Made by a program: the position numbers and the translations under genes. Below, in pieces: positions 18,213-22,189 of a stretch of DNA of 64,000 nucleotides (positions within the stretch are counted from its first letter, which is position 1; each line of letters begins with the position of its first letter). This stretch comes from Agreia bicolorata (lineage in GTDB: Bacteria; Actinomycetota; Actinomycetes; Actinomycetales; Microbacteriaceae), in NCBI RefSeq assembly GCF_000938265.1, contig NZ_JYFC01000006.1:62001-126000 (forward strand), written 5' to 3'. Below the pieces are notes generated by a model. It was given only the letters and a program-made list of their open reading frames with translations, did no database searches and was not told the DNA's origin.

Positions 18213-18763
18213 GGCCTGCTTCCCCGTGCCTCGGCAGCCGCCGCGATCACACTGAGTACACGCTTCATGTAGGGCGCCCAGAACAGTCCCACGATGGCGC
18301 GCACGACGAACGCCCGGCCCGGCAGCGGAAAGAACCGATACTGCCAACGGATGTTCGTGGTCGCCGATTCGGCGTGCGGGCTCGAGCCACCGGGTCCACC
18401 CGACGCATCGGAGCCGGCGGGGCCGGCCGGGGTGAACGTCCATTCCGCGCGTCCCCCGCTCACGAGCCGACCGAGGATGCCCGTGAACCGGCTCAGATCG
18501 TAGGCGAAGAACGCGCCTGGCTCGCTCTGCGTGATTGTCTCGACGACGGTGCCGCCGTCCGAGAGCCGAAGGGTGCGCGTGTAGCCCACGACGTCCCAGG
18601 TTTTGGGCTGCCCCACCACCCCGATGACGGCGGGCAGCGGGCCGAAGCGCGGGTAGAACTCGGTGGGCGGAGTCTGCAGCGCGACAGTCCAGCTTCGGAG
18701 TGCCACGGCGCCAACGACGAGCTCGGTGGTGTAGCCGATAGCGCGGCGCGGGTTCGTGGTCAC
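18203..18763 (-). CDS. SRPBCC-like protein
   Basis: The protein has 186 residues. The alternation of strands with an aromatic/hydrophobic pattern (TWDVVGYTRTLRLSDGGTVVETI, GRAEWTFTPAG, NIRWQYRFFPLPG) and a C-terminal amphipathic helix RVLSVIAAAAEA is what is expected for the START/SRPBCC ligand-binding fold. A low-complexity Gly/Pro/Ser/Ala insertion lies near residues 118-135. Its start overlaps the stop of the glutamate-cysteine ligase family gene (ATGA), so it is cotranscribed with it. The ligand is unknown. Confidence 0.75.
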   Translation of the reverse strand: MTTNPRRAIGYTTELVVGAVALRSWTVALQTPPTEFYPRFGPLPAVIGVVGQPKTWDVVGYTRTLRLSDGGTVVETITQSEPGAFFAYDLSRFTGILGRLVSGGRAEWTFTPAGPAGSDASGGPGGSSPHAESATTNIRWQYRFFPLPGRAFVVRAIVGLFWAPYMKRVLSVIAAAAEARGSRPHD

Positions 18764-19866
18764 GGGCGTGCTCCGATCGATTGGGTCTCAGCGACAACGA
18801 GCCTCACGACGTCATCGAGTTCCTGCGTGCGCGCGAACGCCGCGCGCTGCCTGTCTGACGAGTTGCCTCGAGCGAGAGCGTCCTCCGCCAGAGCCTGCAC
18901 CTCGGCGTAGTCGCCGAATTCGTCGAGCGCGGGTCGGAGGCTTTCGATCAGGCCGCGAACCGCGTCGCCTGCGTCGATGGGATGCGGTCGTGCACCGGCG
19001 CTGAGCAGCTCTGCCGAGAGTCCTGTGCGTGCAGCCTGCCAGAGCGCTGCCCGCTGCACCGGCGCTCGCCGAGGCCGCAGCGGAACGCCGTTCTCGATGT
19101 CGATCTCGGCGGTGCGCACGGCCGCTCTGAACAGCCCGGCGATGAGCACCGCGTCGTCGACGAGCGGGAGCGCGTCGCATACGCGCAACTCGAGTGTGGG
19201 TGCGTGGGCCGACGGCCGGATGTCGAAGTAGGCCATGCCGTCGTCGGCGATAACACCGGTGCTGATCAGGTCGGCAATGAGTTCGTCGTACTCGGCGGCA
19301 GATTCGAGCGGGCCGGTAGCCCCGGCGCTCGGCCAGCGTTGCCACACGAGGCTCCGCACGCTCGCATAGCCGGTGTCGTGTCCGTTCCAGAACGGTGAAC
19401 TGGCCGACAGGGCCAGCAGAACGGGCAGATGCTCGGCCACACGCTGCGCGAGCTGAATGGCGAGATCTCGGTCGGAGACTCCCACGTGCACCTGGAAACC
19501 GCAGATCAGCTGCTCGTCGACAAGCAGCCGGTACTTCTCTTGCATGGCGCCGAAGCGCTGCGACGAGGTGAGCTCGAAGTCGGAGATCTCGGAGCGCGGG
19601 GCCGTGCCGACTGCCGCGATCCCCACCCCAAGCGCGCCCGCGGCATCCATCACGCCCTGTCGCAGCCGCACCAGTTCGTTTCGCAACTCGCCCAGCGTGT
19701 GCACAACGCGGCTGTTGGTCTCGACGGTGGTGCGCTGCAGTTCGGCGGCGTAGCTTTCGCTCGGCAGCGTCTCCAGTAACCGCGGCGCCGAGGCCGAGAG
19801 GCGCCACGAATCGAGGTCGATGAGGTGAAGCTCTTCTTCTGCGCCTAGCGTCAGTTCCGCGCTCAT
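18760..19866 (-). CDS. Carboxylate-amine ligase, YbdK/EgtA (GCS2) family
   Basis: The protein has 368 residues of the glutamate-cysteine ligase 2 family: LTLGAEEELHLIDLDSWRLS at the N-terminus is the ATP/metal-binding EEE-like start, followed by the conserved TNSRVVHTLGEL and GFQVHVGVSDRDLAI blocks. Members join glutamate to cysteine or a similar amine with ATP. GTG 19872 is an alternative start. It lies 60 bp downstream of a winged-helix regulator whose leader contains a Cys/Met-rich ORF, which fits a thiol-related role, but the true substrate cannot be read from sequence. Confidence 0.88.
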   Translation of the reverse strand: MSAELTLGAEEELHLIDLDSWRLSASAPRLLETLPSESYAAELQRTTVETNSRVVHTLGELRNELVRLRQGVMDAAGALGVGIAAVGTAPRSEISDFELTSSQRFGAMQEKYRLLVDEQLICGFQVHVGVSDRDLAIQLAQRVAEHLPVLLALSASSPFWNGHDTGYASVRSLVWQRWPSAGATGPLESAAEYDELIADLISTGVIADDGMAYFDIRPSAHAPTLELRVCDALPLVDDAVLIAGLFRAAVRTAEIDIENGVPLRPRRAPVQRAALWQAARTGLSAELLSAGARPHPIDAGDAVRGLIESLRPALDEFGDYAEVQALAEDALARGNSSDRQRAAFARTQELDDVVRLVVAETQSIGARP

Positions 19867-19929
19867 GAGCACAACCTAGCCGCAGGTGGGCGCTTCGTGA
19901 CAGCCCTAGCTTTCTCGGCTGCTCTCGGC

Positions 19930-20634
19930 TTAGAACAGGTCGGGCGACGGAGTCGAGGTGTGCTGCACCGAGACGTCTGCGTGGCGATCGAAGCGGTAGC
20001 CTGCGCCGCGCACCGTGCGCACGATGTCTTCGTAGTCGCCGAGCTTGGCGCGTAGACGGCGCACGTGAACGTCTATGGTGCGCTCGTTCGGAATGTCGCT
20101 GTCGTCGGCCGACCAGAGCGACGCGATGAGCTCTGCACGGTCGATGGTCTTTCCCTCGCGCAGCACGAGGTACTGGAGCAGCTCGAACTCCTTGTAGGTG
20201 AGGTTCGCCGCGTTGTTGTCGAGCAGTACACGCTTGCGCGACAGGTCGATCACGACGCCGTCGCGAGCGCGGTCTTCGTCGTCGGGAGTGTGGCGGTGCT
20301 TGGCGAGTGCCGCCGGATCCTGCAGAGCGAGGCGCACCACGTCGACATCGCGTCCGCCAGCGCCGCGGGGAGCGAGCGCCACGGCCGCGTAGGTCTCGGA
20401 CGAGGGGGAGAGCTTGGCCGCGAGGGCACGGAGCTGGGCCACGATCTCCGAAAGATCGGTGCCGTCTGCCGCCGCCTTGTCTTCATCGATTCCGACATAC
20501 AGAACGAATCCGCGGGCTTCGGTTCCGGTGGGTACCGCACGCAGGTGGGCCGATGTCGACTCGGCGGCGGGCTGCTCCGAGCGGGTGATCGGGGTGACGG
20601 TGGCGGGGCGGGTGTCGAGGTGTGCAAGAGACAT
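19930..20634 (-). CDS. Winged-helix (OmpR-type DNA-binding) regulator without receiver domain
   Basis: The protein has 234 residues. Residues about 135-225 form a Trans_reg_C winged helix: LTYKEFELLQYLVLREGKTIDRAEL, then NERTIDVHVRRLRAKLGD and VRTVRGAGYRFD. The N-terminal 120 residues are not a phospho-receiver; they include a Thr/Ala/Pro-rich tail and a short alpha/beta-looking segment. Transcription appears to start over 300 nt upstream, through a 33-codon Cys/Met-rich ORF and three hairpins, so expression is probably controlled by attenuation. The GCS2-family gene follows on the same strand. Confidence 0.88.
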   Translation of the reverse strand: MSLAHLDTRPATVTPITRSEQPAAESTSAHLRAVPTGTEARGFVLYVGIDEDKAAADGTDLSEIVAQLRALAAKLSPSSETYAAVALAPRGAGGRDVDVVRLALQDPAALAKHRHTPDDEDRARDGVVIDLSRKRVLLDNNAANLTYKEFELLQYLVLREGKTIDRAELIASLWSADDSDIPNERTIDVHVRRLRAKLGDYEDIVRTVRGAGYRFDRHADVSVQHTSTPSPDLF

Positions 20635-20748
20635 GGGAGAAATCCTTTGACGATGTGCCCTTGAGGCTCCGGCCGGATACGGCGACGAAGCGGATGCCCC
20701 AGGGCGGGCTGTGCGAATGGTGCGGCGGGAGAGCCGGAGACCGCGAAT

Positions 20749-20820
20749 GGTTCTGAGGGTCAGAACCAGGCGGGGGGAGCGGAGGTCTCTGCGTGACAGA
20801 GAGACGCAGACCTCAGAACC
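20749..20820 (-). promoter_or_regulatory. Alternative hairpins in the regulator leader (attenuator-like)
   Basis: In the minus-strand transcript, GGTTCTGAGG (20820-20811) can pair with CCTCAGAACC (20758-20749) over 10 bp. That pairing competes with two local hairpins: GAGGTCTGCGT/ACGCAGAGACCTC (20814-20782) and GGTTCTGA/TCAGAACC (20767-20749). A further small stem CCTGA/TCAGG lies upstream at about 20843-20830. These mutually exclusive structures between the short ORF and the regulator gene are what an attenuator looks like. No U-tract follows the last stem, so control could be Rho-dependent or translational. Confidence 0.65.
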
Positions 20821-20853
20821 CAGCGAACCTGATTTGTCAGGCTCAGTGTCTGG

Positions 20854-20955
20854 TTAGGCACACATTCGGCAACACATGACAGCGCTGCTGGGCATCATCA
20901 TGCCAGCAGTCCCCAGTGCCTCAAAGGAGGTAAGGGCGAGCGCGTTGTCAGTCAT
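20854..20955 (-). CDS. Cys/Met-rich 33-residue leader peptide (uORF)
   Basis: The ORF encodes 33 residues; nine are Met or Cys. The tail reads MMMPSSAVMCCRMCA, with Cys28, Cys29 and Cys32 in the last six positions. A TTGACA box (20992-20987) and TAGCTT (20967-20962) precede the ATG, the latter by six bases, so the transcript may begin at the start codon. Leaderless polycysteine uORFs that act as cysteine-responsive attenuators are known in mycobacteria. Here the downstream gene is a winged-helix regulator followed by a glutamate-cysteine ligase family gene. It is too short for ordinary gene calling. Confidence 0.7.
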   Translation of the reverse strand: MTDNALALTSFEALGTAGMMMPSSAVMCCRMCA

Positions 20956-20961
20956 GAATGA

Positions 20962-20992
20962 AAGCTAAGCGGAATATGACTCCGCGTGTCAA
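20962..20992 (-). promoter_or_regulatory. Promoter of the leader ORF and regulator
   Basis: TTGACA (20992-20987) is separated by 19 bp from TAGCTT (20967-20962), which ends six bases before ATG 20955. The -35 is perfect and the -10 matches TANNNT. Confidence 0.6.
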
Positions 20993-21034: not shown

Positions 21035-21667
21035 TCAGACGAGGCCGTAGAGGCGGTCGCCGGCGTCTCCGAGACCGGGAACGATATAGCCCTTCTCGTT
21101 GAGTCGCTCGTCGAGCGCACCGAGAACGAGGTGCACCTCGCGTCCTTCCGTGGCCTTCTCGAGCGCGGCGACGCCCTCGGGGGCCCCGAGCAGGCAGATT
21201 GCGGTCACGTCGACGGCGCCGCGGGCGAAGAGGAACTCGATGGCCGCTCCGAGCGACCCTCCGGTGGCCAGCATGGGGTCGAGAACGAAGCACTGCCGAT
21301 CGCTCAGATCGTCGGGCAGGCGCTCGGCGTACGTCGTGGGTTCGAGCGTCTCCTCGTTGCGCACCATGCCGAGGAAGCCTACCTCAGCACTGGGAATGAG
21401 CTTGACCATGCCCTCGAGCATGCCGAGCCCCGCGCGAAGAATGGGAACGATCAGCGGTCGCGGCTCCGAAATGGCGAGGCCCTTGGTCTCGGCGACCGGC
21501 GTCTGAATGGTGACGACCTCGGTGCGCACCTCGCGGGTGGCCTCGTAGGCCAGCAGGGTCACGAGCTCTTCGGTCAGCGCCCGGAACGTCGGAGCCGGCG
21601 TCGACTTGTCTCGCAGCACGGTGAGCTTGTGCGTGATGAGCGGGTGGTCGGCAACGTGAACTCGCAT
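21035..21667 (-). CDS. upp: Uracil phosphoribosyltransferase
   Basis: The protein has 210 residues, the usual length. It converts uracil and PRPP to UMP in pyrimidine salvage. The PRPP loop is [13 protein letters not shown] and the uracil-binding C-terminus is [16 protein letters not shown]. The ATG sits six bases after TAGATT (21679-21674), so it is probably leaderless. It is divergent from tadA with about 36 bp between the start codons. Confidence 0.97.
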
Positions 21668-21673
21668 AGGCTC

Positions 21674-21679
21674 AATCTA
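21674..21679 (-). promoter_or_regulatory. upp: -10 box for leaderless upp
   Basis: TAGATT on the minus strand ends six bases before the ATG, matching the TANNNT-N6-start pattern repeated across this window. Confidence 0.5.
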
Positions 21680-21703
21680 CTGGAGCGGAAGGGAACCGTC
21701 GGC

Positions 21704-22189
21704 ATGACCGAACGACCGCGCCCCGCGCATCCATGGCCTGCCGCCTACGGCGAGCGCATGCGCGAGCTGCTCGCAGACGCCCGGCTCGCCGAGGCATCGG
21801 GCGACGTTCCCGTGTCGGCTATGGTTCTGGATGCGTCGGGCCGGGTCATCGGGCGCGGCCGCAACGAGCGCGAGCTGCTGCACGATCCCACGGCCCACGC
21901 CGAGATGTTGGCGCTGCGCGAAGCATCAGCGGTGACGGGGGACTGGCGCCTCGAGGGCTGCACTCTGATCGTCACCCTCGAACCGTGTGTGATGTGCGCC
22001 GGAGCGATCTTGGGCGCTCGCGTGCCGACGGTGGTGTTCGGAGCGTGGGACGAAAAGGCGGGCGCTGTCGGCTCGGTCTACGACGTTCTGCGCGACCGAC
22101 GCCTCAACCACACGGTCGAGGTGTGGGCCGGCGTCGAGGCCGACGCCTGCGCTGCAGCCCTGACGACGTTCTTCCGCGGGCCCCGCTAG
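21704..22189 (+). CDS. tadA: tRNA-specific adenosine deaminase
   Basis: The protein has 161 residues from the ATG preceded by GGAAGGGA; the longer frame upstream only overlaps upp in antisense. The zinc and catalytic motifs are TAHAEMLAL (His, Glu) and EPCVMCAG (two Cys). It deaminates A34 to inosine in tRNA-Arg(ACG), needed to read CGC and CGA codons. Relatives acting on free bases exist, but the sequence fits TadA best. Confidence 0.95.
   Translation: MTERPRPAHPWPAAYGERMRELLADARLAEASGDVPVSAMVLDASGRVIGRGRNERELLHDPTAHAEMLALREASAVTGDWRLEGCTLIVTLEPCVMCAGAILGARVPTVVFGAWDEKAGAVGSVYDVLRDRRLNHTVEVWAGVEADACAAALTTFFRGPR

Follow-up and report, generated by a model that had tools for sequence, protein, structure and literature searches.

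A widely conserved Cys-rich upstream open reading frame and its hairpins form a probable ribosome-gated leader of an orphan winged-helix regulator gene in Agreia and related actinobacteria

Leader peptides with Cys codons were proposed upstream of actinobacterial cys operons in 2005 (PMC1262725), and translated leaderless upstream open reading frames (uORFs) carrying Cys codons were seen in mycobacteria in 2015 (PMC4633059). Polycysteine leaderless uORFs of mycobacteria have been reported to be cysteine-responsive (Canestrari 2020, as referred to in passages of PMC9031893 and PMC13236596), and a uORF leader has likewise been described for whiB7/wblC (Lee, Lee and Roe 2022, as referred to in a passage of PMC13236596). 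Judged by sequence comparison, the leader analyzed here resembles the known Cys uORFs in outline (a short leaderless ORF whose Cys codons come close to its stop, in a leader with no obvious terminator), but departs from the mycobacterial polycysteine attenuators in one feature that defines them, its target being an orphan winged-helix regulator gene instead of cys genes. It further differs in that its invariant part is CGA AUG and not cysteine, Cys can be lost, and conserved hairpins follow the uORF. A uORF ahead of an actinobacterial transcription regulator gene is also shared with the whiB7/wblC leader, which differs in its unrelated target family (the only Pfam domain here is Trans_reg_C, and the target is not of the WhiB family), in its different uORF, and in that no terminator was found here. 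With trp/ilvB-type attenuators, the leader would share the meeting of a codon-dependent ribosome position with RNA stems; it differs from them in lacking a U-tract terminator, and the anti-terminator pairing proposed in an earlier sequence-only reading of this DNA is not conserved. No description of the leader was found in the open-licence literature searched.

The window, meaning the whole 64,000-nt stretch of DNA that was analyzed, comes from an Agreia genome; among named relatives, four Agreia strains come closest, with 93-97% protein identity. The locus lies in a minus-strand series of genes, in which upp is followed by a 400-nt gap and then by the regulator gene:

21667..21035, minus strand: upp, first gene of the series
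400 nt between upp and the regulator gene, minus strand: gap holding TTGACA, TTAGCTT, and the uORF
20987..20992, minus strand: TTGACA, the -35 hexamer of the uORF promoter, a perfect match to consensus
20962..20968, minus strand: TTAGCTT (TTAGCT/TAGCTT), a -10-like element 6-7 nt before the ATG
20854..20955, minus strand: uORF of 33 codons, MTDNALALTSFEALGTAGMMMPSSAVMCCRMCA, opened by the ATG at 20955 and closed by a stop whose last nucleotide is 20854
20891..20904, minus strand: GGCATGATGATGCC, coding for GMMMP and also a small inverted repeat, absent from a few lineages
20863..20868, minus strand: CGAATG (CGA AUG, Arg-Met), the invariant core two codons ahead of the stop
20643..20648, minus strand: AAAGGA, Shine-Dalgarno sequence of the regulator gene
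19930..20634, minus strand: orphan winged-helix regulator gene, with Trans_reg_C at residues 142-215 and no receiver domain recognized
19872..18760, minus strand: gene for a GCS2/YbdK-type carboxylate-amine ligase, after the regulator gene

The ligase had been put forward as a cysteine-related target of the circuit, a link that comparison of 80 loci does not bear out. It adjoins the regulator gene only in Agreia (4/80 loci) and was accordingly rejected as a regulated target; outside this genus, no sulfur gene is linked to the regulator in the 80 loci, and the control of cysteine or sulfur genes that marks the polycysteine uORFs is therefore not seen in a leader whose target is a winged-helix regulator. 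The conserved upstream neighbors are instead upp and tadA (75 and 76 of 80 loci; window 21038..22186), a linkage that is possibly plain synteny. tadA encodes the tRNA adenosine deaminase, whose activity permits CGA decoding.

The regulator itself was found by protein search in 250 of 250 genomes (in one or a few of them, of very small size, the match is weak and at paralogue level only), in 120 of 120 genomes of family f6, and in 60 of 60 of family f7; we take f6 and f7 to be the Micrococcaceae and Brevibacteriaceae. The uORF ahead of its gene, ending in MCCRMCA and first noticed from the window alone, proved real: it occurs in 109 of 110 orthologous loci from many genera, which points to more than a chance reading frame, with the reservation that kinship among the sequences inflates uORF and leader counts and that the 110 loci include some duplicates of one genome; the codon counts below refer to 93 distinct leaders. 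Its stop lies a median of 192 nt from the regulator start in the leader set. Taken together, conservation over three families strongly supports the role proposed for it, that of a leaderless, Cys-rich uORF which would act in cis on the winged-helix gene.

The promoter that had been read upstream of the uORF holds in part. The hexamer at 20992..20987 is a perfect TTGACA and a -10-like element does lie 6-7 nt before the ATG, but the latter is merely TAnnnT-like, and a 9-of-12 consensus sigma-70 scan scored no promoter at the uORF because of this poor -10. The geometry is kept among the relatives: the distance from TTGAC to the uORF ATG is 36-37 nt in 77 of the 93 leaders (37 in 47, 36 in 30) and 35 in another 4, and a -10-like element ends 6-8 nt before the ATG. 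By geometry, this places the start of transcription at or beside the AUG, which fits leaderless translation of the uORF from the 5' end of the transcript.

At the end of the uORF, CGA AUG followed by two codons and a stop is invariant in 93/93 Microbacteriaceae leaders and 39/39 f6 leaders. In the Microbacteriaceae set, codon -6 is TGT in 78 of 79 Cys codons, codon -5 is Cys in all 93 (TGT 68, TGC 25), the Arg codon is CGA and the next ATG in every leader, codon -2 is Cys in 87 (TGY; Ser in 5, His in 1), and the last sense codon is mostly CGC or GCC, whereas the stop itself varies (TGA 45, TAA 38, TAG 10). No other Arg codon was ever seen, against a background, taken from neighboring genes of the same loci, of 6.2% CGA among Arg codons and 10.4% TGT among Cys codons; the Arg codon is thus held by its letters or as a codon, while the Cys codons mainly show T/C exchange.

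The uORF has 33 codons in 61/93 leaders and ranges from 25 to 45 residues, and over codons 2-27 third-position change is not in excess (divergence 0.281, 0.288, and 0.286 at the three codon positions), so that no coding signature extends over the whole uORF. A small functional protein made together with the regulator, for instance a metal-binding one, would suit the Cys-rich C-terminus and its conserved residues; it is nevertheless highly improbable in view of this length range, of the loss of the middle GMMMP part in several genera that retain the uORF end (L061, L067, L076), and of an invariance that holds for CGA as a codon and not for residues. No NCBIfam model matched the peptide.

Enrichment of the Cys codons (TGT-TGY) is strong but stops short of invariance, and Ser, Arg, Asn, Phe, or Tyr takes their place in some lineages. 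This bears on the proposal that the leader is a strict cysteine-responsive attenuator, in which sensing would fall to the Cys codons, in the way of the mycobacterial polycysteine uORFs, and the regulator would take part in sulfur control. Cys at -5 and -2 with synonymous TGT/TGC exchange in Microbacteriaceae, the preference for the slow TGT over TGC, and CCC runs in many f6 leaders all speak for it. The picture for contiguous Cys codons near the stop is mixed: CC occurs in 79/93 leaders and CCC in many f6 leaders, but neither in L169, L269, L273, and L280. Against the proposal stand these four leaders, in which the core has no Cys, namely SGFRMQA (L169), MRNRMCM (L280), LRRRMCR (L273), and AMRRMCA (L269), as well as codon -2 of f6, which is His, Gln, Ser, or Pro, the CGA AUG that alone is invariant, and the restriction of sulfur gene linkage to Agreia. 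Lineages with NRM, RRM, SRM, FRM, or YRM also occur. Cysteine sensing is plausible, though probably not the whole story, and its strict form is a tentative option.

Reading of CGA normally requires inosine at the tRNA-Arg wobble base. The invariant CGA codon might thus itself be the sensor, with the leader reporting CGA decoding (charged tRNA-Arg or A-to-I editing) and the Cys codons acting as an added brake, a reading that we regard as doubtful; Arg or CGA decoding is an equally doubtful candidate for the signal.

At the genome level, a single copy of the motif TGTTGYCGAATGTGYNNNTRR is present in each of 29 Microbacteriaceae genomes out of about 34, and the order's other families, represented by about 360 genomes, have no copy. 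A broader, related pattern found matches in Agreia and two f6 genomes only among 395 class-wide genomes, and none of these genomes outside the order gave a match. Within the window's own genome, the short pattern has a second match, TGCCGAATGTGCCGATGA at G000:C16:41766-41783. In a further set of 30 Microbacteriaceae genomes that includes many reduced ones, CGA AUG and the stop are kept in about two thirds, while in about a third, mainly genomes below 2 Mb, the regulator is kept and the CGA AUG uORF was undetected (L281-L284, L288, L290, L291, and others). Various other f6 genera likewise have no such uORF.

Downstream of the uORF, folding and comparison delineate the following elements:

20828..20841, minus strand: hairpin I (CCTGA...TCAGG), directly after the uORF stop
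20782..20820, minus strand: hairpin II (GGTTCTGAGGTCTGCGT...ACGCAGAGACCTC), with GGTTCTGAGG at 20820..20811 as its 5' side and ACGCAGAGACCTC at 20794..20782, from MFE structures
20749..20767, minus strand: hairpin III, GGTTCTGACCCTCAGAACC, a hairpin retained in Agreia relatives despite altered letters
20714..20719, minus strand: CATTCG, which is predicted to pair with CGAATG of the uORF, with a second copy at 20749..20744

Two of the hairpins after the uORF, I and II, are conserved, one of them with clear compensatory changes. Hairpin I recurs with other letters according to genus (TCGGC/GCCGA, CGAGA/TCTCG, CGACGA/TCGTCG) and has a mean z of -1.2 (t -5.8, n = 54 leaders). From its position and sequence, we infer that hairpin II is the Agreia counterpart of a family hairpin of the form GAGTYC...GRACTC. 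Positions 4-8 of this GAG...CTC hairpin form 157 pairs against 118.1 ± 6.4 after permutation (maximum 138 of 2000), in an alignment anchored only on GAG and CTC, from which 39 leaders, including all Agreia, fall off-anchor; the exchanges comprise T-A/C-G, C-G/T-A/A-T, and C-G/G-C. No terminator-like U-tract site was found on the minus strand between the uORF stop and the regulator. Rfam gave no covariance-model match in the window, and in eight relatives, searched up to E 1, it returned only a tRNA, a cspA match below threshold (L184), and one match at chance level.

The last 120 nt of the leader are enriched in CATCATC near the Shine-Dalgarno sequence of the regulator gene (35/93 leaders, expected 0.65; for instance L015, L060, and L077). 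As a partner of the uORF segment ATGATGATG, this motif was rejected, CATCATC being no rarer where ATGATG is missing (8/11).

The sequence-only reading had also drawn a switch, in which GGTTCTGAGG (20820..20811) would leave its local hairpin to pair at 10/10 positions with CCTCAGAACC (20758..20749). Both pairings can indeed be drawn in the Agreia window, but the mutually exclusive pair, as drawn, does not stand above chance. When the window leader is folded, both local hairpins form together and the GGTTCTGAGG:CCTCAGAACC alternative lies 3.4 kcal/mol higher (P<0.001); in five relatives, where it can form 10, 7, 5, 10, and 5 pairs, the penalty is 4.7 to 13.2 kcal/mol. Among the Agreia relatives, the pairable positions fall to 7, 5, 5, and 0 in L003, L004, L034, and L005, the last of which lacks both segments, so that the pairing is broken in 4/6 and the conserved mutually exclusive stems of a classical attenuator are not found in Agreia. 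Because it is energetically disfavored and not kept in these same-genus relatives, the switch was rejected as a conserved mechanism; conceivably it could still have a kinetic role in the window strain.

A different pairing engages the end of the uORF itself. In Agreia (L001-L004, L031, L034), CGAATG:CATTCG is predicted with a pair probability of 1.0 at most positions. In f6 (39 distinct leaders), the uORF ends in CGA ATG N3 N3 stop, the usual peptide ends being MCCCRMQA and CCRMHA, with Ser, Phe, Tyr, or Arg replacing the Cys before Arg in some; CATTCG recurs downstream in 32/39 leaders (31 as GCATTCG, the exact complement of CGAATGC, and 1 as ACATTCG), where shuffled sequences predict 1.0, and most copies lie 75-93 nt past the uORF stop. 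Since both sides are invariant, this is conservation of complementarity and not covariation, and kinship inflates the count. In f7, the uORF ends differently (MCMPCVRGR, MLCVRDLTC, and similar), and its terminal GTTCG pairs with CGAAC about 20-40 nt on, the stem extending with altered yet still pairing letters (GTTCGCGACC:GGTCGCGAAC, GTTCGCGATCA:TGATCGCGAAC, GTTCGCGGC:GCCGCGAAC). Beyond the five constant anchor pairs, these positions form 94 pairs against 85.3 ± 2.2 after permutation (p 0.0004, 17 distinct leaders), with exchanges that include GC/AT compensation. Over all Microbacteriaceae, by comparison, the uORF end has no excess of downstream complementarity (duplex energy versus shuffles, mean z -0.11) and no codon-matched downstream partner, and a general long-range pairing in that family, with duplexes no better than shuffles and unmatched to codon type, was therefore rejected; we keep the pairing for f6, f7, Agreia, and most Agromyces alone.

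In the f7 leaders L152-L155 and L192-L221, GCGTTCG at the uORF end has two possible partners, an earlier CGAATGC within the uORF and a downstream CGAACG, and two exclusive pairings can be drawn.

If the uORF end were an RNA or DNA element only (a pairing strand or a protein site) and its peptide incidental, it would be readily understood why CGA is never swapped for another Arg codon, why f6 keeps CGAATG:GCATTCG, and why the f7 uORF end lies in a compensated helix. This seems unlikely, as the reading frame is kept, along with the two-codon distance to the stop and the spacing of AUG and promoter, while the stop varies, and the Cys codons change mainly by T/C at the third base.

We consider it likely that the leader is a ribosome-gated attenuator of this conserved, near-universal regulator. 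Briefly, transcription would most likely start at the uORF AUG, and the first ribosome would load at the 5' end and read about 33 codons. Toward the end, with two codons left before the stop, it would meet wobble codons that are decoded slowly (UGU UGU CGA AUG). The nucleotides of this end and those just past the stop would belong to stems of the leader RNA. A ribosome at the stop codon would sit over CGAAUG as well as over the 5' arm of hairpin I, whereas one held a few codons earlier on slow TGT/CGA, or absent, would free both, and the stems then formed would set the amount of regulator mRNA made or translated. Comparison lends support to the components of this scheme, that is, to the conserved uORF, the promoter-AUG geometry, the codon invariance, the stems, and, for f6, f7, and Agreia, the predicted pairing that involves the uORF end. 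From these we infer that the translation state would control regulator output, together with the direction, the step (transcription or translation), and the signal of that control. With no U-tract terminator present, translational control or Rho-dependent ending appears likelier than an intrinsic terminator.

As the signal sensed by such a ribosome-gated leader, a shortage of Cys-tRNA and a general slowing or stalling of translation are both possible, and in our judgement about equally so. In the latter case, the uORF would sense drugs or starvation as in whiB7/wblC, whose uORF riboregulation is published (Lee 2022, as referred to in a passage of PMC13236596), and the slow codons would merely set the pause. 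The nature of the target, a transcription regulator, the length of the leader between uORF stop and gene start, and the retention of the slow TGT and CGA codons agree with this possibility, which would leave the strong bias to Cys unexplained and does not sit well with a leader in which no intrinsic terminator is seen.

The ribosome-gated leader matters in that an uncharacterized regulator, near-universal among the sampled members of three actinobacterial families of soil and plant bacteria, sits behind a very highly conserved uORF, which offers a direct handle on what the regulator responds to. One codon of this uORF is conserved as letters and not as an amino acid, and simple mutations can tell apart the effects of codon choice, ribosome position, and RNA pairing.

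The regulator is of the OmpR/PhoB winged-helix type, with Trans_reg_C (1.3e-21) as its only Pfam domain. Its N-terminal part contains no Pfam receiver domain and is of low confidence in the AlphaFold model; it holds a different conserved block, which extends beyond Microbacteriaceae into f6 and f7. The DNA-binding half is closest to PDB 8hml, 8hig, and 8hih (E down to 8e-22), which we take to be GlnR structures. The OmpR-type winged-helix DNA-binding domain is thus shared with the GlnR-type orphan regulators of the OmpR family, from which the present protein would appear to differ in this N-terminal part. GlnR boxes have the form GTnAC-n6-GTnAC (review, PMC10704036). Around the uORF promoter, GTNAY repeats 9-12 bp apart (GTCAY every 10-11 bp by the -35) occur in 19 of 26 Agromyces and Cryobacterium-like leaders against 0.15 expected, and may possibly be an autoregulatory site of the regulator. 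In L098, L100, and L074, GTCAY direct repeats precede the uORF ATG by about 40-70 nt, in the manner of OmpR/GlnR-type operators.
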